DNA of 64,000 nt. It comes from Fodinibius halophilus (GTDB lineage Bacteria > Bacteroidota > Rhodothermia > Balneolales > Balneolaceae). The number at the start of each line of letters is the position of its first letter. The stretch's first letter is position 1. The stretch covers positions 62,001 to 126,000 of the forward strand of contig NZ_JAALLS010000012.1 of NCBI RefSeq assembly GCF_011059105.1. Direction: 5' to 3'. Below are positions 7,284 through 18,241 of this stretch, one piece after another. The notes under the pieces are model-generated. The model had not been told where the DNA came from. It searched no databases and saw only the letters and a list, made by a program, of their open reading frames with translations. Position numbers and translations under genes: made by a program.

Positions 7284-9443
7284 CTATTCCTGTGACTTGG
7301 GATACCACTGGAAGCCGTCGGCTCGGTTGAACTTAATTACCGAGCGGTGGTTGTCTTTAAATACCACTTTCTTCTGGTCGGTATACAGCCACTCTTCGCT
7401 GGTTGTATCTCCCAGGTAAACCTCCACAGTATGTGCCCCTGCTTTAAGGGGGATGTATTCCACGGCTCCACTCATCCCATCGTTATACAAGCCGCTGGGT
7501 TCGTACTTCTGTTCGTGCACCGTCTCACCATCTACATCAATACGTAAGCGCACATCAGAACGCTCACGTTTAGCCGGGGCATTCCTGGACTGCATATGCG
7601 ATTGCAGATTCTGTTGTTCTGATTCTTTTTTGACACTGCTATCCACAGGACGACCCGGCATGGTAAAGGATACCACAAGCTCTGAGTCATTTTGTATAGG
7701 TACGCTGTAAGGGGCATTACTAAAGAAGTAGGTAAGGCTGCTCAACATGAGCACTAAAAACGCACCCATAATATATTTCTTCATCTTAGTTGAAGAGCTC
7801 TCATCCTGTTTCAACGTGAATTTACTTGTATTTCGCTGTAGCTCTCGGGCCTCTTTGATAAAGCCATCATAATCAGTTCGGTCGTACTGCAGGTAATGGA
7901 TTCGAGATGAGTCCACTTTTTCATTTCGTAACTCGGGATGACGTCCTCCGCTAATACGCTCCTCGGTCCACATGGCCCCCAACCGATAATCCGGCTCGCT
8001 CTGGCAACCCACAATAAGCACTCCTTCCGCCCCTTTGCGCAGAGCACGCTCTATCATAAGCGGATGTACCCATCCCACACAAGGAATAGATCGAACGATA
8101 TAGCCCGGCAGCTCTTTACAACGACCGGTAGCCTCATCAATATGCAGATCTGCCCCTGCAGAGTTAGAACAGATATAGGCTACATCTACCGAAGACTCTT
8201 CTTCCAGGCGTTCATGGAGCCAGCTATCTATCTCTCTGCGTACATCCATGGCCGGGAGTCGGGGAAATTCGATACCCACCGGATCACATGATCCTACACA
8301 AATACCACAGGCAATACATTTTGAGGGATCTATGGAAGCATAGAAGTCGCCCCGCTTTTTATCGTCCTCTGCACGAGGCAGCATTGTAATGGCATTAAAG
8401 GGGCAATCTTTATAGCACTGCTCACAACCGTTACACCGATCAGCATCTACTTGTGGCTTGGGACGTCTCTTCTTGACAAGAACCCAGGGCACGCTTACGA
8501 AGGCGATAAATCCGATTAGGGTAATGGCCCATAGTGCTCCACCTTCCAGACGATCGGTAAAATACATCGGCAACATGTAGAAGTAATCGAGAGGCATCGT
8601 CTGCTGGATCTCCAGCATTTTAGCCGGCTTTGCCAATCCGGCCGGCAGGGCAGCTGATAAAACTCCTAACGACCCCAACACAGCTATTGTCATCGGCTTT
8701 TTTGTAATAAAGTGGGCCTTATTAAGCCGTGAAACATGTAGCCATAAAGCGATCCCCATCGCAAGGGGAATCAGCATATGGAAGAAAAAGACCAAAAAGA
8801 ATAAGAGAGAGTCAAAACTGTCGTCCGTCAAAAATGATCGACTTAGAGGCTCAGCAAAAATAGGGAGCTGGTCCAACATTTTTGCCGTCCCTACTGCAAC
8901 CTGATTTGCTGCCTCATCCCATACCAGCCAATAACCCAGCCAGCCATCAAACCAAAGCAGGGCCAGGGCCACTATCCCTGTTACCCACGCCAGCCATCGG
9001 GCACCACTAAATCTGCGCGCAAAAAACATCTTAAAAGCATGAAACATGATAAACAGCATGCAGGCATCAGAGCTGTAGCGGTGCAATGATCTGAAAAAAT
9101 CGCCCAACGGACTTATTTGATCTAACGAGCTGTAGGCTTGATGTACACTGGGCTTATACCAGAATAACAACACAAATCCTGATACGAGCGCAATAATAAA
9201 GGTGGTATTGGCTATGGCTCCCGACTGCGTAAATGGATTAAGATTCTGCGGAATATATCGCTCTACAAGACGATCAAGCTGATGAAACCAGCGATCGATA
9301 ACGCGTAAAACAGATTCTCCGCGAACCGGTGGATCGGGACGCTGATCTTTAACTTGTGAAGAGAAGTCGTTTTCATCGGTATTCACTTCCTGCTTTCCGG
9401 ATGCGAGTTCTACCAGATTAATTTCCTGTTTCTCAGTATTCAT
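7284..9443 (-). CDS. Cytochrome b / 2x[4Fe-4S] ferredoxin / MvhD-like fusion membrane protein
   Basis: 719 residues from ATG 9443 (AAGGA upstream; the TTG two codons earlier is less likely). Residues about 75-245 are a cytochrome b N-terminal domain with two exact H-x13-H pairs (His121/135 and His222/236), enough for two b hemes. Two more helices follow. A ferredoxin domain has CNGCEQCYKDCP (337-348) and CIACGICVGSCDP (376-388). Residues about 420-535 resemble MvhD, the hydrogenase/heterodisulfide reductase iron-sulfur subunit (ICSNSAGAD, PCVGW, GVLIVGC), but only three of the usual Cys remain (425, 455, 480). One more helix (about 553-572) leads to a periplasmic tail. It is the last gene of the heme-copper operon and may move electrons between quinol, or a soluble donor, and that enzyme. 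The direction is unknown. Confidence 0.8.
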   Translation of the reverse strand: MNTEKQEINLVELASGKQEVNTDENDFSSQVKDQRPDPPVRGESVLRVIDRWFHQLDRLVERYIPQNLNPFTQSGAIANTTFIIALVSGFVLLFWYKPSVHQAYSSLDQISPLGDFFRSLHRYSSDACMLFIMFHAFKMFFARRFSGARWLAWVTGIVALALLWFDGWLGYWLVWDEAANQVAVGTAKMLDQLPIFAEPLSRSFLTDDSFDSLLFFLVFFFHMLIPLAMGIALWLHVSRLNKAHFITKKPMTIAVLGSLGVLSAALPAGLAKPAKMLEIQQTMPLDYFYMLPMYFTDRLEGGALWAITLIGFIAFVSVPWVLVKKRRPKPQVDADRCNGCEQCYKDCPFNAITMLPRAEDDKKRGDFYASIDPSKCIACGICVGSCDPVGIEFPRLPAMDVRREIDSWLHERLEEESSVDVAYICSNSAGADLHIDEATGRCKELPGYIVRSIPCVGWVHPLMIERALRKGAEGVLIVGCQSEPDYRLGAMWTEERISGGRHPELRNEKVDSSRIHYLQYDRTDYDGFIKEARELQRNTSKFTLKQDESSSTKMKKYIMGAFLVLMLSSLTYFFSNAPYSVPIQNDSELVVSFTMPGRPVDSSVKKESEQQNLQSHMQSRNAPAKRERSDVRLRIDVDGETVHEQKYEPSGLYNDGMSGAVEYIPLKAGAHTVEVYLGDTTSEEWLYTDQKKVVFKDNHRSVIKFNRADGFQWYPKSQE

Positions 9444-9482
9444 TTTCAATCCTTTTTTTATGTACTACAAAAGCGACTATAT

Positions 9483-10439
9483 TTAAACAGTCGGTATTTC
9501 TTTTATCAGCGTTTCTACAGCTTTTATTAACCACTTTTTTTGCCGATCGCCCAGCGTAAAGCGATAAGCGACTTTGCCGTCTTTATCAATCAGAATAAAA
9601 ATATTTGCATGATCAATAGCCCCGTCGGCACGGCGCTTACGGGGTATATTTAAGTTGTCCAGCAGTTCATCTACATACTGCTTTTCACCGGTTAATAGGT
9701 GTTGTTTAGGATCAGCGAGCTCATAATGCTCTGCCGTCATCTTTAACATTTTAGGGGTATCCTTCTGGGGATCCATGGTGACAGCCATCAGTTGAAGTGG
9801 TAGCCGTTCATTGGATCTGTTTAATTCTTGCATAACTTCCCGGGCCTGATCTAAAATCACAGGACACGTTTCTGAACAGGAAGCATATACTGCTGTTATC
9901 ATTATTACATTATCACGATAATCGGAAAGAGAGATCTGCTTCTTATCCTGGTTGATGAGCGTAAAATCGGGAGCCTCAATTTCCGTTCGTAAATCCTGAG
10001 CAGGAAATGGTAGCTCACCGCTCTCGCCATCGGAATAAAGGGAAGGCAATGTGCTTCCTAATAATATGATGATAAGTAATCCCGGAAAGATATAGGGAAT
10101 AGCTTTCTGAGGATAATTCTTAAGCATTTCTGTTATTGGCTTGTACCAGAAAGCGAAAATAAACAGGCTTAACATCGTCGGTTGCACCAAAAACATCACC
10201 AGGTAGATAGATTCGATTTCTCCGGTAGCCGGATCATAACCGAGACACCATTTTTTGAATTCACCGGCAAACGTACCCAGTGTTGACTCTGAAACCGGTA
10301 TCAGGGTAACGACAATAACCAGAATGGCTAAAAAGAATAGGATAGAAAGCATGAAGACAGGAAATCTCCACGACGAAAAGAACGACTCCAAGTTGGCCAA
10401 AAAAATCTTAAAACGCTTCCTTGTTCTTTCCTTATTCAT
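9483..10439 (-). CDS. SCO1/SenC-family protein with three N-terminal membrane helices
   Basis: 318 residues. The C-terminal thioredoxin-like domain (about 150-318) carries the SCO copper site: Cys188 and Cys192 in CSETC, and His277 in DHANIF. SCO proteins deliver copper to, or reduce, CuA in oxidase subunit II. The N-terminal half is unusual, with about three hydrophobic helices (26-47, 77-98, 113-133) instead of one anchor. The gene sits 81 bases after the catalytic subunit I gene and 39 bases before the cytochrome b fusion gene, so it is most likely the assembly factor for the CuA subunit of this operon. A second, lipoprotein SCO lies at 26720. Confidence 0.85.
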   Translation of the reverse strand: MNKERTRKRFKIFLANLESFFSSWRFPVFMLSILFFLAILVIVVTLIPVSESTLGTFAGEFKKWCLGYDPATGEIESIYLVMFLVQPTMLSLFIFAFWYKPITEMLKNYPQKAIPYIFPGLLIIILLGSTLPSLYSDGESGELPFPAQDLRTEIEAPDFTLINQDKKQISLSDYRDNVIMITAVYASCSETCPVILDQAREVMQELNRSNERLPLQLMAVTMDPQKDTPKMLKMTAEHYELADPKQHLLTGEKQYVDELLDNLNIPRKRRADGAIDHANIFILIDKDGKVAYRFTLGDRQKKWLIKAVETLIKEIPTV

Positions 10440-10520: not shown

Positions 10521-12248
10521 TTATCGCACGAACCAGAGATCTGCTAATGCTTTCCAGTTGGCGAAATAGTAGACCGCAAATGTCAGCAAGAATATGATGA
10601 CTACGGTTAACGTACCGGGTGTTTTAATGTGTTCGTAATCTTTACCTTCTTCTTCGTAACCTTTTTCAATGAGCTCGTCTTTCATACGAGTAGAATGCTC
10701 ATCTTGCCAGCTCTCCATCGGACGTCCTTCATTGGAACGACCAAAGAAGACCGTTGCTACCGTTAGGCCAATAAAGAGCAAGAGACCTAAGAAGGCAATA
10801 ATTCCACCGATTCCTACCAGTCCCAACATAACGTGGGCAATAGGATCAAAACCAGCACTTAGGATAGAACCTGAGAAATCTACATCCCAGTGACGTCGTG
10901 GTACACCGTACGACCCGGCAAATGACATTCCCAATGACATTACTACAATACCACCTCCAAAAACATATGGCTGAATGCGTGCCAATCCTTTGAGATAAAA
11001 CTCTTTCTGGAAAATCAGGGGTACCAGATAGTAGGCAAGCCCCATAAATGCCAGCGATGTTCCTCCTACCACAGTGGCGTGGAAGTGACCGGGAATACGC
11101 AGTGTATTATGCGCAATAATATTGATCTGCTCAGTACCCAGTGTTACACCGGTGATACCGCCCATAAATCCAAAGATGATAATAGACAGCATTACTGCAG
11201 AAAATCCGGGATCTTTCCATGGTAGTTTTGAAAACCAGCCGAAAATCCCTTTCGTAAATCCTTTACGTCGTTGAGCGACCTCCAGTGAAGCAGGAACAGT
11301 ATATCCGTGAATCATAGATGCGAGAACAGCAAGATACATCGCATAAGAAGTGTTCCAGATTTTCCATCCGGGGCCAACGCCTGGATCTACCAGTAAGTGG
11401 TGGGCAGAAGCCAAATTGATAAACAGGATGTACAATAGAAATGCTCCTCGACATACGGTTTCGTTCAACGGCTTGGCGCCCGTCGTCATAGTACCCATGA
11501 AGTACCAAACCGAAACCATGGCACAGACGTTAATCTGCTGCGACATGTGACCAAGTCCCCACCAAAGCAGGCGATATAGGCCGGGATCTACCGGACCGAT
11601 CCATCCCATAGACCACATGAACGTTGGTATCAGAGCTGCAGCACCGTGTGCCAAAGCAAGCACTGCAATAATAGCTGCTGCCATGGCTCCAAAAGTAACC
11701 AGCGGCATTGACCCTTCATAGGTTTCGTCTCGCTTGGCTATGTAGAGCGTTGCAAAGAAGTTAAAACAAACAATTAACGCTCCTACCGCAAATAATATGA
11801 TTCCCAAATAAAACATCGGGTGTGCTTTCAAGGGCACATATGAGGTCAACAGTACATCTGCCTGACCGGCAAGAATAATGTAGTTGGTCATCAACGCACC
11901 TATGCCCATTAACGCAAGAGATATCCATCCCAGCATCTTCGAGAATAAGCGACTATTCAACAGGGTCGTACATGCAAAGTAGAGTATCCCCATCTCCATA
12001 AAAATGATCCAAAATACCAACATATTTACCCCGTGCAGAGTAAGCATGCGATAATAATAAACGCTGCCTAATAGGTGAACAGCAGTCCATCGTGTTAAAG
12101 CCAGGCCAATAGCGGCGATGGCTCCAACAAGCAGAAAGACAACGGCCAACACCGCATTGACCTTCGTAAAGAACTCTGCGTTACGGAATACGCGAAGACC
12201 GGTTGTCTTACAGGTTCGAAATTTTGCTATAGCTTGTGTAGCATTCAT
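10521..12248 (-). CDS. Heme-copper superfamily catalytic subunit I, Gln-type (probable NO reductase)
   Basis: 575 residues with about 12 membrane helices. All six metal-binding His of the superfamily are present: His72 (LHG, helix II), His234 (GHMSQQ, helix VI), His283/284 (SAHHLL, helix VII), His388 and His390 (GHFH, helix X). Four residues after His234, where B-type oxygen reductases have the cross-linked Tyr, there is Gln238 (Gln237 before it). Absence of that Tyr is a hallmark of NO-reducing members of this superfamily such as the eNOR group. Together with a CuA subunit II and neighbouring nirK, NO reduction to N2O is the favoured role, though a variant oxygen reductase is not excluded. 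The start is ATG 12248, 19 bases after the subunit II gene. Confidence 0.8.
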   Translation of the reverse strand: MNATQAIAKFRTCKTTGLRVFRNAEFFTKVNAVLAVVFLLVGAIAAIGLALTRWTAVHLLGSVYYYRMLTLHGVNMLVFWIIFMEMGILYFACTTLLNSRLFSKMLGWISLALMGIGALMTNYIILAGQADVLLTSYVPLKAHPMFYLGIILFAVGALIVCFNFFATLYIAKRDETYEGSMPLVTFGAMAAAIIAVLALAHGAAALIPTFMWSMGWIGPVDPGLYRLLWWGLGHMSQQINVCAMVSVWYFMGTMTTGAKPLNETVCRGAFLLYILFINLASAHHLLVDPGVGPGWKIWNTSYAMYLAVLASMIHGYTVPASLEVAQRRKGFTKGIFGWFSKLPWKDPGFSAVMLSIIIFGFMGGITGVTLGTEQINIIAHNTLRIPGHFHATVVGGTSLAFMGLAYYLVPLIFQKEFYLKGLARIQPYVFGGGIVVMSLGMSFAGSYGVPRRHWDVDFSGSILSAGFDPIAHVMLGLVGIGGIIAFLGLLLFIGLTVATVFFGRSNEGRPMESWQDEHSTRMKDELIEKGYEEEGKDYEHIKTPGTLTVVIIFLLTFAVYYFANWKALADLWFVR

Positions 12249-12267: not shown

Positions 12268-12792
12268 TTATTCGACTATGATTTTACCGGTCATCATATG
12301 GTGTCCGATACCGCAAAACTCATTGCAGATAATTTCGAAATCACCGGTTGAGGTAGGTGTTATGGTAAGCACGTGATCGTAACCGGGCAGAATATGGAAG
12401 TTCATATTCATAGGCAGCAACGAAAACCCGTGCTGCAGATCCGGAGATGAGATATGCAGACGGTACGTTTGACCTTTCTTAAGTTTAAGAATGGGGTACC
12501 AGCGCCACATCTCTCCCACCAAATATGCATCTCCCCCGGGAGACGGCTCTACGATAGGAACACCTTTTTCTTCTCCTACTTTATTAGATTCGATAAATTG
12601 ATTGGCCCGGTCCAGAAAAGCTGATGCTTCAACTTTATAGGATTCACCGGTACTATTCTGCTTTCCTTTGAAGTGCCAGTACGGCATCGTAACGGACATG
12701 ATCAAGCACCAGGTGAGCGCCAGACCTACCCAGAGCCGCTCGGTACCGGTCGGGGCCTTAAACCAATTTCCAACAGGACTAAAAATACTCAT
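12268..12792 (-). CDS. Heme-copper enzyme subunit II with CuA site
   Basis: 174 residues: one N-terminal membrane helix (about 20-42) and a periplasmic cupredoxin domain. The CuA ligands are intact: His in DLQHGFS and the motif CNEFCGIGHHMM (C-x3-C-x3-H-x2-M). It accepts electrons from a cupredoxin or cytochrome c and passes them to subunit I. The short length with a single helix is typical of B-family (ba3-like) subunit II. It is the third gene of the operon. The auracyanin-like protein encoded at 16611 is a reasonable donor (inference). Confidence 0.9.
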   Translation of the reverse strand: MSIFSPVGNWFKAPTGTERLWVGLALTWCLIMSVTMPYWHFKGKQNSTGESYKVEASAFLDRANQFIESNKVGEEKGVPIVEPSPGGDAYLVGEMWRWYPILKLKKGQTYRLHISSPDLQHGFSLLPMNMNFHILPGYDHVLTITPTSTGDFEIICNEFCGIGHHMMTGKIIVE

Positions 12793-12984: not shown

Positions 12985-14427
12985 TTAAGGGTTTGATTGA
13001 AATGGTGAATTTTTTCTATTCATCCAGGCTTTTACTACGATCCATAAGAATAGTAAACCGCCGGATACGGCCAGCAATCCGCCAACCGTCATAAAACCAA
13101 GTCCTACAAATGCTTCTATAGAACCGATATGTTGTTCAGAACCGAATGATTTTCTTGCCAGTCCATGGGCTCCCGCATAGCCAAAACCGGCTGCAAAAAT
13201 AGCTTGCCCCAATCCAAACAACAGGGGCTGTATGGCAGCAAGCTTTTTGAGTCTTCCTTTTGGGATTGGCACCCCGTGGACTTCCAGTAAGAAATATGTT
13301 ATAGCCATAAAAGCTACGGTGATACCGCCAACGGCTGCATGGTAGTGGGCCGGCACCATTGTGTTAGAGCCGCGAATCATAGCTCCTAAAATGAAACCAA
13401 TAATTGTGAGTAGCATACTGGTGACCAATCCCCCGAAATATGGATTCCTTAAAATTTGTTTCGGGAGCTCATTATTGGCCCGGGCTCTCACCAGTTTTGT
13501 TACAATAATGCCTACAAAAATTGTGACTACAGGAAATATGCCCCACTGCATAAAGCGTGTGAAGCCCCAGTGATAAAGCAGGTCGCCCGTTCCATTCATA
13601 GTCAAAAGAGGAGCAGCAAGCAGAGGTAGCGTATAAATACCAAACAGAACGGCAGACACCCGGTAAGAAATTGGGTTTTTACCAAGAAGTTCTCCCAACA
13701 GAATAATCCAAACTGAGAGCATGGCCGCTACATTAACAAACTGCAGCAAGTGTCCGCCTCCCCAAATTGTCAATTCATAATAGGTTAGCACTTCTAATCC
13801 CATGGGGGTAACCAGCCAAGAACTGAAAAAAGTAATAAGGCTTATCAATAAAATTACAGCAGCAGATCTAAAACCCGGGATTGAAGAGGCCGGAAATATA
13901 GTATTAGTCGTAAAAGAGGACTGATTTGAAGAAGGAATAATACGTGTGTTAAACACCGTACACGCTACCCCTCCGGCAAAGAAAAGAAGGCCCCCTATAA
14001 ACAACGGGTGATCTAGTACCGGTATATAATTAGAGAGAACGGGCTCCGCCGAGGGTACAAAGATTGAAGCCACCAACATACCAACCCCTGTTACTGCGAG
14101 CGCATATCCCATTGGCAATAATCGATTTCCATTTTTTCGCGTTGGCACCAACACAAAGAGGCCACACAAAAAAGCATAAATCCAGATCAACAATGCCAAA
14201 TCAACATGCACCACCAACCCTCGCTTTGCAAATAGAGGATCGGATATTAACTCGCTGATTATCGGAGCCCGTCCTAAAACGATAATTACTGAAAAGAAAC
14301 CGGAGAGCAGCAGCGTACCGATACTCATGAGTATCCATAGCCTCGACTGAGTCTTTGAATCTACCTCTACCCGGTCTAGCAGTGATGCAACCGGCAACGT
14401 CAATATTTTTTTAAGAGCAACCAACAT
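12985..14427 (-). CDS. Degenerate heme-copper subunit I paralogue (helix-VII metal ligands lost)
   Basis: 480 residues from ATG 14427 (GGAG 7 bases upstream); the TTG at 14448 would overlap the operator. About 12 helices. It aligns with the catalytic subunit I downstream: His74 (VVHVD, helix II), WGGGHLLQFVNV with His226 (helix VI), and PAHYH with His361 and His363 (helix X). In helix VII, where the catalytic subunit has SAHHLLVDPG, this protein has LAAPLLTMNG, so both His ligands of CuB or the non-heme metal are replaced by Ala-Pro (272-273). Ligands for both hemes remain. It probably keeps hemes but lacks a normal dinuclear centre, so an electron-transfer or structural role in the complex is inferred. 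First gene of the operon. Confidence 0.75.
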   Translation of the reverse strand: MLVALKKILTLPVASLLDRVEVDSKTQSRLWILMSIGTLLLSGFFSVIIVLGRAPIISELISDPLFAKRGLVVHVDLALLIWIYAFLCGLFVLVPTRKNGNRLLPMGYALAVTGVGMLVASIFVPSAEPVLSNYIPVLDHPLFIGGLLFFAGGVACTVFNTRIIPSSNQSSFTTNTIFPASSIPGFRSAAVILLISLITFFSSWLVTPMGLEVLTYYELTIWGGGHLLQFVNVAAMLSVWIILLGELLGKNPISYRVSAVLFGIYTLPLLAAPLLTMNGTGDLLYHWGFTRFMQWGIFPVVTIFVGIIVTKLVRARANNELPKQILRNPYFGGLVTSMLLTIIGFILGAMIRGSNTMVPAHYHAAVGGITVAFMAITYFLLEVHGVPIPKGRLKKLAAIQPLLFGLGQAIFAAGFGYAGAHGLARKSFGSEQHIGSIEAFVGLGFMTVGGLLAVSGGLLFLWIVVKAWMNRKNSPFQSNP

Positions 14428-14447
14428 ATTTAAACTCCAGTTTTTCA

Positions 14448-14498
14448 ATAGATGTCTATGTCTATAATCGATATTTTTTAATAGATATACAAGTCTAT
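14448..14498 (-). promoter_or_regulatory. Two candidate operators ATAGA-N8-TCTAT upstream of the heme-copper operon
   Basis: Two perfect copies of ATAGA-N8-TCTAT (14448-14465 and 14481-14498) start exactly 33 bp apart, about three helical turns, and lie 21-71 bases before ATG 14427. The same 18-bp inverted repeat is found before nirK. The Rrf2 gene at 14689 is divergent from this region, making its product the first candidate to bind. Confidence 0.6.
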
Positions 14499-14688: not shown

Positions 14689-15141
14689 ATGCATTTACCT
14701 CAGACTGCAGAATACGCATTGCGAGCAATGGCCTGTATTGCCCTCAAAAAAGACGGGCGCCCTGTTCCATCAAAAGTACTCGCACGTGCTACCGGTATTC
14801 CCAGCCATTACTTATCTAAAATTTTACGCAAGATGGTTGAAGCCGACCTTGTGACCTCTCAAAAGGGGCACGGTGGCGGGTTTCGACTTGCTAAAGATCC
14901 CAGTGAAATCAAATTCAGAAGTATTTTAGCCACGGTAGATTATAAAATTGAACCTAACAGCTGTGTGTTTGGCTGGGATGAATGCGACAGCGATGATCCG
15001 TGTCCACTACATAACACCTGGAGCCAACTTAAAGACTCATTCCAGTGGTGGGCCGAAAACACAACCCTTCAAGATGTTATTGACGACCCCGGGAAAGCGG
15101 AATCACTCCTTAACCCCATAAATGCCACCAAGGCAGACTAA
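14689..15141 (+). CDS. Rrf2-family Fe-S transcription regulator (NsrR-like)
   Basis: 150 residues. N-terminal winged helix-turn-helix (1-65: YALRAMACIAL, IPSHYLSKILRKM, GHGGGFRLA), then a dimer helix and three cysteines C92-x6-C99-x5-C105 with the following PLHNTW, which in NsrR, IscR and RirA hold a [2Fe-2S] or [4Fe-4S] cluster. Divergent from the heme-copper operon, with 261 bases between start codons and two ATAGA-N8-TCTAT sites in between. Position and cysteines suggest an NO-responsive repressor of this operon and nirK. The exact signal (NO, iron or redox) cannot be told from sequence. Confidence 0.85.
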   Translation: MHLPQTAEYALRAMACIALKKDGRPVPSKVLARATGIPSHYLSKILRKMVEADLVTSQKGHGGGFRLAKDPSEIKFRSILATVDYKIEPNSCVFGWDECDSDDPCPLHNTWSQLKDSFQWWAENTTLQDVIDDPGKAESLLNPINATKAD

Positions 15142-15231: not shown

Positions 15232-16476
15232 TTACTTAATAAAACTGGGTGTAACAGATAACATTACCCAACCCCAGTGCTGTGTTGATTCAGCTCCAGG
15301 CACACCCTTGATACGTTCCATTGAATCGGTAGAACTTAACAGAGAGTATCCCATCTTTAATGCAATATCATCACTAAAACTGTGAGACAGATTAAAATCA
15401 AACTCAGCCCCTAGCCCTTTATCCAGAGAAGACGTTGCTGAAACCTCCTCTGCAAGTGCAAAGTTGTGATAGGTCAATGACAGAGTTGTCTTTTCAGAGG
15501 CAGTATAAGTTGCCTTCAGATAGATATCCTGGAGACCGCCCAGCTGCGTATCATTTGGCACATTCAAGAAGTAATCCATATTACCATAGAACTTGTGGTT
15601 TGTGGCATACAACGTATTGAATACGTTTCGCTGGGGATTGTTATCATTCACGCTACCCCCAGACAAATAATCATAGCCAGCTGTTAGTCCGAAGCTACCA
15701 AAGTTATATCCTGCCTTAACTGCATACATCCAGGCAGAGATATCAGTTCGCATATTATCATCTCCATTCTGCAGATAGATACTTCCGGATGCATTAAATG
15801 CATCCTTGTTATAGGCTAAATGCGTACCATAGGTATAACGAAAGTTAGTGGCATCAGTAACTTGGAAACCATCAGTAATACCTATGACAGAAATATTAAA
15901 TGCATCCATCTTTTTATGTAACCACAAGTACGATAACACCTTGTAGTTATTCATGGTGTAAGTATTTCCAATAACGTTTTGAGCCTCTTGGTTATAAGCA
16001 GCTCCCAAATCCAACTTAAAGTTATTGTTATCTACCTTCACCACTAACGCATCGTGACTACGGGCCTGTTGCGTCCAATTAACGCTGCCTAACAGGCGAT
16101 GGTCGTCATAAATAAGTTCTTGGCGACCAAGTTTTAGATCCATTGCATCTGTGACCTTTAATTGGGCCCAAACTTCATGGATATTGACATTGGGATTATC
16201 TTGCAGCTGCGCTACCTCACCCCAGGTACGTACATCCTGTCCGGCAACTTTAATTTTGTACAGATCCGTTTTGTATTGTAGAGTAAGTCGTGCTCTTTGC
16301 GAGGTAAAAAATGCGGGATCCATATCCGCAGTTCGTACTGTTCTATATCCATTCCGATATTCCGTTCGTGGTCGTAACTCCCCATCTAAAGAAAGTTGTG
16401 CCTGTACCAACGCCGGAATTGCAAATAGTACAGATGAAATAATTGTTAGTCGGCGAATAGCTTTATAAAATTTCAT
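15232..16476 (-). CDS. Outer-membrane beta-barrel porin (alginate-export-like family)
   Basis: 414 residues with an N-terminal signal peptide cut near LVQAQLS. The rest is built of alternating amphipathic beta strands with aromatic ends and finishes VTPSFIK; blocks such as LDGELRPRTEYRNGYR, LGRQELIYDDHRLLGS and WTQQARSHDALVVK are typical of the alginate_exp domain porins. It probably forms an outer-membrane channel. It lies 134 bases after the cupredoxin gene on the same strand as nirK. In this context it could let nitrite or another small anion into the periplasm, but the family does not define the substrate. Confidence 0.7.
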   Translation of the reverse strand: MKFYKAIRRLTIISSVLFAIPALVQAQLSLDGELRPRTEYRNGYRTVRTADMDPAFFTSQRARLTLQYKTDLYKIKVAGQDVRTWGEVAQLQDNPNVNIHEVWAQLKVTDAMDLKLGRQELIYDDHRLLGSVNWTQQARSHDALVVKVDNNNFKLDLGAAYNQEAQNVIGNTYTMNNYKVLSYLWLHKKMDAFNISVIGITDGFQVTDATNFRYTYGTHLAYNKDAFNASGSIYLQNGDDNMRTDISAWMYAVKAGYNFGSFGLTAGYDYLSGGSVNDNNPQRNVFNTLYATNHKFYGNMDYFLNVPNDTQLGGLQDIYLKATYTASEKTTLSLTYHNFALAEEVSATSSLDKGLGAEFDFNLSHSFSDDIALKMGYSLLSSTDSMERIKGVPGAESTQHWGWVMLSVTPSFIK

Positions 16477-16534
16477 TGCTAATAATTTTTAAAATTCTTG
16501 TATGTAAGTTATTCTGCCACCTTTAATTAAAACC

Positions 16535-16563
16535 GGAGAGAACTGCCTGATGCAATCCTCTCC
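16535..16563 (-). terminator. Weak stem-loop between cupredoxin and porin genes
   Basis: GGAGAG (16535-16540) pairs with CTCTCC (16558-16563) around a 17-nt loop. Read on the minus strand it is followed by GGTTTTAATT. The stem is short, so it may be a partial terminator or an mRNA processing element that lowers porin expression relative to nirK. Confidence 0.35.
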
Positions 16564-16610
16564 AGTCTTTAAGATGGAAACCCAGAATTACGATAAACTA
16601 GGTTGCCTTA

Positions 16611-17069
16611 TTATTTAACCGTGAGTACTCCTTTCATACCCCCAGCAAAGTGGCCGGGAAAACTACAGATGTACTCATAATCACCGGGCTCCTCAGGAGC
16701 CGTAAAGGTGACCTCTACTGTTTCGCCGCCACCGGCCAAACCTGTGTAAGCAATGATCTGATCTTTCATATCCGCAGGGATATACTCATTGTCTGAGGCT
16801 TTGGCTGAGGCACGAGCAACAGCTGTTACATCAGCATCAGCTGTAAGGAGCACAAAATTGTGAGCCATTGCTGCCTTCGGAAAGTCACTAACAGTTGTGA
16901 GCTTAACCGTAATCTCCTGTCCTGGCTGCGCTTCTATGTTCGTTACCGTAAACTTCATCTGGTTAGTACCATCCATTTCGATAACCTTCGGTGCTGTGTC
17001 GTTAGCCATGACCACTTGTGCCATGAACATGATCAACAGTACGGGTAGTATTCGCTTTATTGTTTTCAT
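16611..17069 (-). CDS. Azurin/auracyanin-like blue copper protein
   Basis: 152 residues with a signal peptide (about 1-22, MAQVVMAN) and a cupredoxin domain. Type 1 copper ligands: His in AMAHNFV, and the C-terminal loop CSFPGHFAGGM, i.e. C-x4-H-x4-M. Azurin itself has C-x4-H-x3-M, while C-x4-H-x4-M is the spacing of auracyanin-type proteins. It is a periplasmic electron carrier. Directly downstream of nirK (35 bases), it is the obvious electron donor to NirK and perhaps to the CuA subunit II. Confidence 0.88.
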   Translation of the reverse strand: MKTIKRILPVLLIMFMAQVVMANDTAPKVIEMDGTNQMKFTVTNIEAQPGQEITVKLTTVSDFPKAAMAHNFVLLTADADVTAVARASAKASDNEYIPADMKDQIIAYTGLAGGGETVEVTFTAPEEPGDYEYICSFPGHFAGGMKGVLTVK

Positions 17070-17104
17070 AGTTCTAGTATTTATGATTTAAAATTCTTTG
17101 TTGT

Positions 17105-18241
17105 TTAGGTGATGTCCGGATCGAAAATATCGGCTTCTTTAGCACCCTCTACATTAATAATGCCGAGCATACCTTTCTTCGCTACACGGGTGAGTGCGTG
17201 ATCTACCATCTTAACCGGTCCGGGCACGGGGAAGTCCATTTCAAAAATCCCACAGCTTCCCGGAGGCACCTGGCAAGTTTGAACGTAACGCTCTGGTTCA
17301 CTTGCAATAGCTCCTTCTCTCCAAGCCTTGGTAAATACGTTGCCAATGGGGTGGAAATTACTGGTCACGTTAGGGCCACCTGTTACAAGGTATACACGTG
17401 CAGTATCTCCTTTCTTCACCGTAAGCGCACCATGACGATTTCCTGTAATAGCGTACTTTTCGCCATTCAGCACGACATAGGTCGGATCTTCTGCCTTCAT
17501 CCGCTCGGTATCAAAGCCGTGTAATCCTTTAGTACCAGCTGCCTTGTCGGTATAAATTTCGTTCTGACCGAAATAGAACTCGTGGTCAACTTCTGGTAAT
17601 CCTTCTTCAGGCTCTACCAAAATCATTCCGTACATACCACTGCTGATGTGATAATCCATACGAGGTACCGCACAGTGATAGATATATGCTCCGGGATACA
17701 TCGCCTTGAACTTCACTTTCTTGGATTGACCGGGAGGGCAAATTGTAGCATCCGCAGCGCCACCGGGGCCATAACAAGCGTGGAAGTCCACGTTGTGGAT
17801 CATCGTGTTGTCAGTAAGATTCTTATGGTTCAAAATAATAGTATCACCGCGCCGTACACGAAGCATGGGACCGGGAACCTGTCCGCCGTATGTCAAATAC
17901 TTAAACTTCACACCGTCCTCGATTTCAGCAACAACCTCTTTACTCTCAAGCGTAATATTGTGTGTCTTTGAGCTGCGACGCTTGATAGGAGCAGGAATAT
18001 CCGTTGGGTCAGCTGCCACTCTATTCACTTTTGGTAGAGAGAATATTGAGGTAGAGGCCGGATCAGTATTAGTCGGAGCTCCCAGATCATTAGCTTTAGA
18101 CTGGAATGGAAATCCCATACTTGCCAGAAAGCCACCGGAGAGTAATGCTGCACCGGTATTTCTCAAGAAGTTCTTGCGAGACTGCTTTTTATCTGTGGTT
18201 ATATTTTTTTCTTCAACCGTTTTATCGTTTTTCGTTTCCAT
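17105..18241 (-). CDS. nirK: Copper-containing nitrite reductase
   Basis: 378 residues, two cupredoxin domains; reduces nitrite to NO in the periplasm. The N-terminus has a Tat-like signal with RK rather than RR (SRKNFLRNTG, then a hydrophobic stretch to about residue 50). Type 1 copper: His149, Cys190, His198, Met203. Type 2 copper: His154, His189, His348. Catalytic Asp152 and His297 (FHPIGNVF) are present, so it should be active. The Cys-to-His loop (AVPRMDY) is one residue shorter than in Alcaligenes-type NirK. It is the first gene of nirK-cupredoxin-(porin), with candidate operators 27 bases upstream. A second, different NirK is at 24450. Confidence 0.95.
   Translation of the reverse strand: METKNDKTVEEKNITTDKKQSRKNFLRNTGAALLSGGFLASMGFPFQSKANDLGAPTNTDPASTSIFSLPKVNRVAADPTDIPAPIKRRSSKTHNITLESKEVVAEIEDGVKFKYLTYGGQVPGPMLRVRRGDTIILNHKNLTDNTMIHNVDFHACYGPGGAADATICPPGQSKKVKFKAMYPGAYIYHCAVPRMDYHISSGMYGMILVEPEEGLPEVDHEFYFGQNEIYTDKAAGTKGLHGFDTERMKAEDPTYVVLNGEKYAITGNRHGALTVKKGDTARVYLVTGGPNVTSNFHPIGNVFTKAWREGAIASEPERYVQTCQVPPGSCGIFEMDFPVPGPVKMVDHALTRVAKKGMLGIINVEGAKEADIFDPDIT

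Follow-up and report, generated by a model that had tools for sequence, protein, structure and literature searches.

To our knowledge, the heme-copper subunit I families known are terminal reductases. NO reductases related to the B-family oxygen reductases (sNOR, eNOR, bNOR and others), along with further uncharacterised heme-copper families, are reportedly described in Murali et al. 2024. The norSY-senC-orf1 operon of ammonia oxidisers is named in the available text of PMC4940428, and norSY and senC also appear in that of PMC6967387. No description of a subunit I family lacking CuB was found in the accessible portions of PMC6967387, PMC8756737, PMC11388526, PMC12569097, PMC10359470, PMC11707229, PMC8239418, PMC4940428 and PMC5492636, and a term search of PMC9145763 for it was empty. 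No paper on such a family was recognised in this literature search, and the family may already have been published.

The window analysed here, a stretch of 64,000 nucleotides from Fodinibius halophilus, carries on its minus strand, in this order, the genes for a CuB-less heme-copper subunit I homologue (hereafter the paralogue; 12985..14448, 487 aa from a TTG start), a subunit II with a CuA motif (H...CNEFCGIGHHMM; 12268..12792), a catalytic subunit I (hereafter the sister; 10521..12248), a SCO1/SenC copper chaperone (9483..10439) and a recurrent operon member in which cytochrome b, [4Fe-4S] and FlpD domains are combined (7284..9449). A single subunit II gene thus lies between the two subunit I genes. 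The downstream genes, subunits I and II plus SenC, resemble those of norSY-senC-orf1, whereas no extra subunit I is mentioned for that operon in the available text. The product of 7284-9449 is one protein of 721 aa with cytochrome b, [4Fe-4S] sites, an FlpD-like domain and a C-terminal extension; its counterpart is split across two genes in the proteobacterial loci examined and occurs in NO reductase-like operons. An alternative in-frame ATG for the paralogue at 14427 would yield 480 aa, and since the initial annotation ended the gene there, its His74, His226, His361 and His363 are numbered 7 lower than the present His81, His233, His368 and His370. Promoter-like sites around the paralogue gene showed no excess (6 against a shuffle mean of 6.2), and terminator-like sites numbered 6 against 2.3 in shuffles (sd 1.6); as the latter are located within the paralogue and subunit II genes, nothing was concluded from them.

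A divergent Rrf2-family regulator (14689..15141, plus strand) lies on the other side of the paralogue. Beyond it are the genes for a porin-like protein of the alginate-export family (15232..16476), an azurin-like cupredoxin (16611..17069, minus strand; 81.4 bits, under the NCBIfam azurin cut-off of 105.1), which is a possible electron donor, and the copper nitrite reductase NirK (17105..18241, minus strand; 383.9 bits, above the NCBIfam cut-off). These three genes (15232-18241) adjoin the operon and probably form one denitrification cluster with it; the same order was found in genome G396 (L092).

The best PDB matches of the sister were ba3. Its helix VII His-His pair is present in 28/28 aligned rows, and the oxidase-Tyr position is occupied by Gln in all 28 (GHMSQQIN). 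This Tyr replacement and the CuA-bearing subunit II are shared with the B-related NO reductases, and the sister, B-family-like and encoded beside NirK, is a probable NO reductase. A metal site is expected in those enzymes, whereas the normal one is gone from the paralogue. In the accessible part of PMC8756737, a table lists eNOR with Gln and sNOR with Asn. However, the NO reductase role of the sister is uncertain because the available text of PMC6967387 argues that sNOR of Nitrosomonas, a norSY-type enzyme, may mainly reduce O2.

A structural model of the paralogue (pLDDT 81.5, pTM 0.83) returned heme-copper oxidases as its top PDB matches, and the best of these, 3omi_C (Z 30.2, rmsd 3.3, 426 aligned), points to a subunit I fold. 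Thermus ba3 (3s8f) ranked first in Foldseek with a TM of 0.70 for the predicted fold, and VIA-align gave the modelled likeness a Z of 27.5, though A-family chains reach Z 30. When the paralogue profile was searched against PDB sequences, 18/18 matches at E <= 1 were cytochrome c oxidase subunit 1 of ba3 (best E 7e-13). The Pfam COX1 family PF00115 scored the window paralogue at 31.9 bits, under the curated cut-off of 34.8, and scored two relatives above it (L134, 44.1 bits; L128, 51.9 bits). No NCBIfam family matched the window paralogue at E <= 0.01; among 18 family members, two matched CtaD_CoxA (best E 2.2e-5; cut-off 670.75 bits) and one malonate_madL (E 0.0043), none of them above the curated cut-off. 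Elsewhere in the same genome, outside the window, two tandem small proteins of 138 and 148 aa (L008:702-1118 and 1121-1567) correspond to COX1 over no more than its first quarter to third; nearby are a 542-aa protein whose C-terminal part matches globin, a ScdA/hemerythrin protein and a CtaA gene.

Profile-profile alignment of the paralogue with the sister (probability 99.9, E 5e-37, 435 columns) paired His81 with His72, His233 with His234, His368 with His388 and His370 with His390. The sister holds His283-His284 in helix VII, where the paralogue has no His; in the window protein, residues 266-288, covering helix VII and the next loop, contain no His, Cys, Asp or Glu. The initial annotation had read the change as a replacement of the His pair by Ala-Pro. 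The loss of the pair was borne out and the exact residues were not: the register of helix VII could be off by 1-3 residues, the path without gaps in hhalign places the sister pair over Leu282-Thr283 of the paralogue, and alignment with the PDB profile moves the register again, a His pair appearing in none of the registers. The loop between helices VII and VIII is also shorter in the paralogue than in the sister, and the helix VI motif HxxQ is common to the two, extending to HxxQxxN in both window proteins.

Conservation was assessed on 91 non-redundant sequences, obtained from 126 paralogue ORFs by dropping duplicates and those shorter than 380 aa. Arg60, His81, Trp229, His233 and Gln236 are present in 91/91, and His368, Tyr369, His370, Arg432 and Lys433 in all 90 rows covering them, so that the four His proposed from the window sequence as retained ligands are kept wherever covered; Glu225 is kept in 84/91. 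The three heme-ligand His that characterise the heme-copper superfamily, in helices II and X, are therefore all found (91/91, 90/90 and 90/90), and of the three CuB/FeB His only His233 is found in the window protein. The helix VII His-His pair occurs in 0/91 and the four His are kept wherever covered, so the change is not a sequencing error. Column 248, aligned with Tyr248 of ba3 (we assume this numbering and a proton-path role for it), is Tyr in none of the 91 paralogues and in 28/28 sisters. At the helix VI position that we take to be that of the B-family oxygen reductase active-site Tyr, the window protein has Phe237, and the 91 rows have Phe in 74, Leu in 10, Tyr in 1 and other residues in 6. 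The paralogue thus shares the heme His and a basic pair with ba3 and differs from it in having neither the helix VII His pair, nor the cross-linked Tyr, nor the proton-path Tyr. Across the 91-sequence sample, then, the heme ligands and His233 are strictly conserved, and the normal copper site is everywhere either reduced or gone.

The initial annotation held that other residues at the metal position would overturn its reading, and substitutes were accordingly looked for. A replacement ligand at 239 or 292/293 was rejected for the window protein, which by alignment has Asn239 and Tyr292 where many members have His, and an invariant His at 292/293 was likewise rejected, column 293 being His in 4/37 rows, window included. 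Column 239 is His in 63 of the 91 paralogues, Asn in 17 (the window protein among them), Tyr in 8 and Trp in 3, and a single helix VII His stands at column 283 in 26/91, the window protein lacking it. Given these His residues, some family members may bind metal in another way.

An approximate tree was calculated with FastTree from 145 rows, including the 91 paralogues and 42 sisters. The paralogues were separated from all other rows with a support of 0.997 in the unrooted tree (0.805 in the re-rooted print), and the 42 sisters grouped at 0.995. The paralogue clan is poorly placed among the A, B and C families, branches being long and the deeper order untrustworthy; two single rows, L002 and L003, group on a long branch. 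Recent duplication and decay of the sister was rejected as the origin of the paralogue, since the paralogues belong to their own clan and are conserved over several lineages. Because of this separate clan, the window paralogue looks, from the sequences compared, like an old separate subfamily and not like a local duplication.

From what was observed (the pattern of ligands and how it is conserved, the fold as predicted, and the gene contexts), the reading that we prefer, with a probability of roughly 0.45, is that the paralogue is a CuB-less diheme electron carrier built on the subunit I fold; its heme content, partners and function are what we infer. A low-spin heme would be bound by His81 and His370 and another heme by His368; above this second heme His233 and Gln236 would sit, His233 perhaps acting as its sixth ligand. 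With no His in helix VII, a normal three-His CuB or FeB site cannot form, and since both these His and the B-family proton-path Tyr are missing, the protein is not expected to reduce O2 or NO in the usual dinuclear way. The retention of heme ligands and basic pair, combined with the lack of a three-His site and of the proton-path Tyr, argues for a redox protein and not a terminal reductase, and to this extent the non-catalytic heme subunit suggested initially fits. A CuA-bearing subunit II and a partner in the membrane would exchange electrons through the paralogue, which would serve the operon of the NO reductase in the window; other bacteria encode it with its own CuA subunit or next to heme A synthase.

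Gene neighbours within 1.2 kb were counted in 55 loci flanked by 1.5 kb or more in both directions, 36 of the 91 having been dropped for shorter flanks. A subunit II gene on the same strand was found in 8/55, in three cases overlapping the end of the paralogue gene by a few bases, and the CuA motif is kept in 13/13 subunit II genes near paralogues, a hand-picked and not a random set. This CuA partner favours an electron transfer role. However, the other 47/55 loci have no subunit II gene this close, and electron carrying alone leaves unexplained the linkage to CtaA, which was detected by profile in 23/55 loci (15 on the same strand, 8 on the opposite strand). Other neighbours were cytochrome b/ferredoxin genes in 10 and CcsA in 4 of the 55.

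The CtaA neighbours, together with CcsA and ResB, favour a role in heme A/O biogenesis, in which the paralogue would be a CtaA partner exchanging electrons or heme, or a COX1 mimic holding heme before the true subunit I. CtaA/COX15 heme A synthase belongs to a different Pfam family (PF02628), and no homology between it and the paralogue was found by any search in this analysis. Three arrangements were seen, with CtaA directly behind the paralogue on the same strand, in a divergent pair with it, or at the tail of the NO reductase operon, and for 12 of the 23 loci the fetched stretch showed no recognisable catalytic gene, COX1 or COX3. PF02628 confirmed 11/11 of the suspected CtaA genes scanned. 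In addition, a branch of longer paralogues adjoins CcsA and ResB, heme-handling proteins of cytochrome c assembly, and multiheme cytochromes. However, 10/39 control loci likewise have CtaA no more than 1.2 kb from the catalytic gene, so that the linkage is partly a property of oxidase and NO reductase clusters, and the CtaA profile matched some out-of-frame ORFs as well, which in L014 and L039 lie within the paralogue gene itself (the neighbouring CtaA of L039 being a profile call only). CtaA was not noted in operons of the window's own clade, as mapped with window queries only, and the two CtaA genes of its own genome are located outside the window; a pure heme scaffold would, moreover, have no need of a CuA partner. 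We regard a biogenesis role as the main rival of the electron carrier, though rather unlikely. A version joining the two ideas is improbable: here the family would supply CtaA with a redox partner, a CuA/diheme module exchanging electrons during conversion of heme O to heme A, and in NO-respiring bacteria this module would have been recruited to the operon of a NO reductase that depends on heme A.

Two further kinds of locus were observed. L134:6245-8167 encodes a longer member of 641 aa and is clustered with genes for CcsA, ResB, a multiheme cytochrome and an NHL protein, as in L133, L139 and others; some genomes with the longer form (e.g. G533 and G548) also carry an ordinary paralogue and a sister, and the longer-form clusters look like a separate respiratory or cytochrome-assembly system. 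In L121-L127, L137 and L172-L177, the paralogue stands beside CtaA, mostly with an MFS gene behind and in many cases an extra CuA subunit II nearby. These CtaA/MFS loci come mostly from one class of small genomes (14/78 with a match at E 1e-50), of which G699, G634 and G725 additionally carry the NO reductase operon paralogue (L160, L164 and L143).

The distribution of the two subunit I genes bears on the architecture proposed in the initial annotation, a second, pseudo-catalytic subunit I within one NO reductase complex. A scan of named genomes yielded 31 loci. A true paralogue is present in 17 of them (from a Balneolaceae MAG, from Burkholderiales and other Betaproteobacteria, from Paramagnetospirillum and its relatives, and from one Magnetococcales MAG), and in the other 14 only the catalytic gene was found in the fetched stretch. 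The adjacency of paralogue and catalytic subunit expected from the window recurred: the sister lies in the same stretch in 17/17 paralogue loci, and the two share an operon in 8 of the 10 paralogue-bearing genomes of the window's own phylum, in 8/8 with the order paralogue, subunit II, catalytic subunit, SCO, cytochrome b/ferredoxin, the one subunit II gene between them keeping its position. These 10 different genomes, including the window's own, combine at least 6/394 and 8/58 with a paralogue at E < 1e-100; in the scans of 394 and 398 genomes, up to four first-look candidates per genome were scored, so that counts are minima, and the absences used here were re-checked. In the family of Zeimonas arvi (74 genomes), a full-length paralogue was found in 19 and a fragment in 1; the sister is also present in 16/19, and the other three paralogues lie on short contigs, where the stretches fetched carry other genes of the NO reductase operon or its neighbours.

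However, each gene also occurs without the other. The sister is absent from the paralogue-bearing own-phylum genomes G278 and G394, where none of ten neighbour genes scanned was a NO reductase or oxidase gene, and its operon lacks the paralogue in own-phylum genomes G135, G242 and G365 and in 3/74 genomes of the Zeimonas arvi family. In the phylum of Magnetospirillum sp. SS-4, at least 59 of 398 genomes gave a match with E <= 1e-30, counting sister matches; 27 of these, with a family member and no sister seen, were searched again with the sister profile, and 26 had no sister at E 1e-60, G568 having one. Where the sister is missing, the paralogue may be found next to CtaA, next to a CuA subunit II or, in its longer TPR-bearing form, next to CcsA/ResB. 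The two plasmid matches of the paralogue (24-26% identity) were the same genes as two sister matches. A second subunit I in one complex is thus unlikely for much of the family and, overall, improbable as an explanation of the paralogue. Least credible is a mononuclear heme enzyme or NO/O2-binding sensor with an open heme and His233/Gln236 as its distal pocket: the invariance of these two residues at an otherwise empty site, the C-terminal TPR region of one longer member scanned and the NO-related context of the window would suit it, but the domain scan found no signalling domain in the window protein and no substrate clue is at hand.

If the preferred reading as an electron carrier, or one of biogenesis, is true, a wide family that keeps the heme ligands, the helix VI His and often a CuA partner, and that has no copper site, would mean that the subunit I fold can serve as a relay or a biogenesis factor. 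Since domain searches label such genes as oxidase or NO reductase subunits, counts of denitrification genes could be inflated by them.
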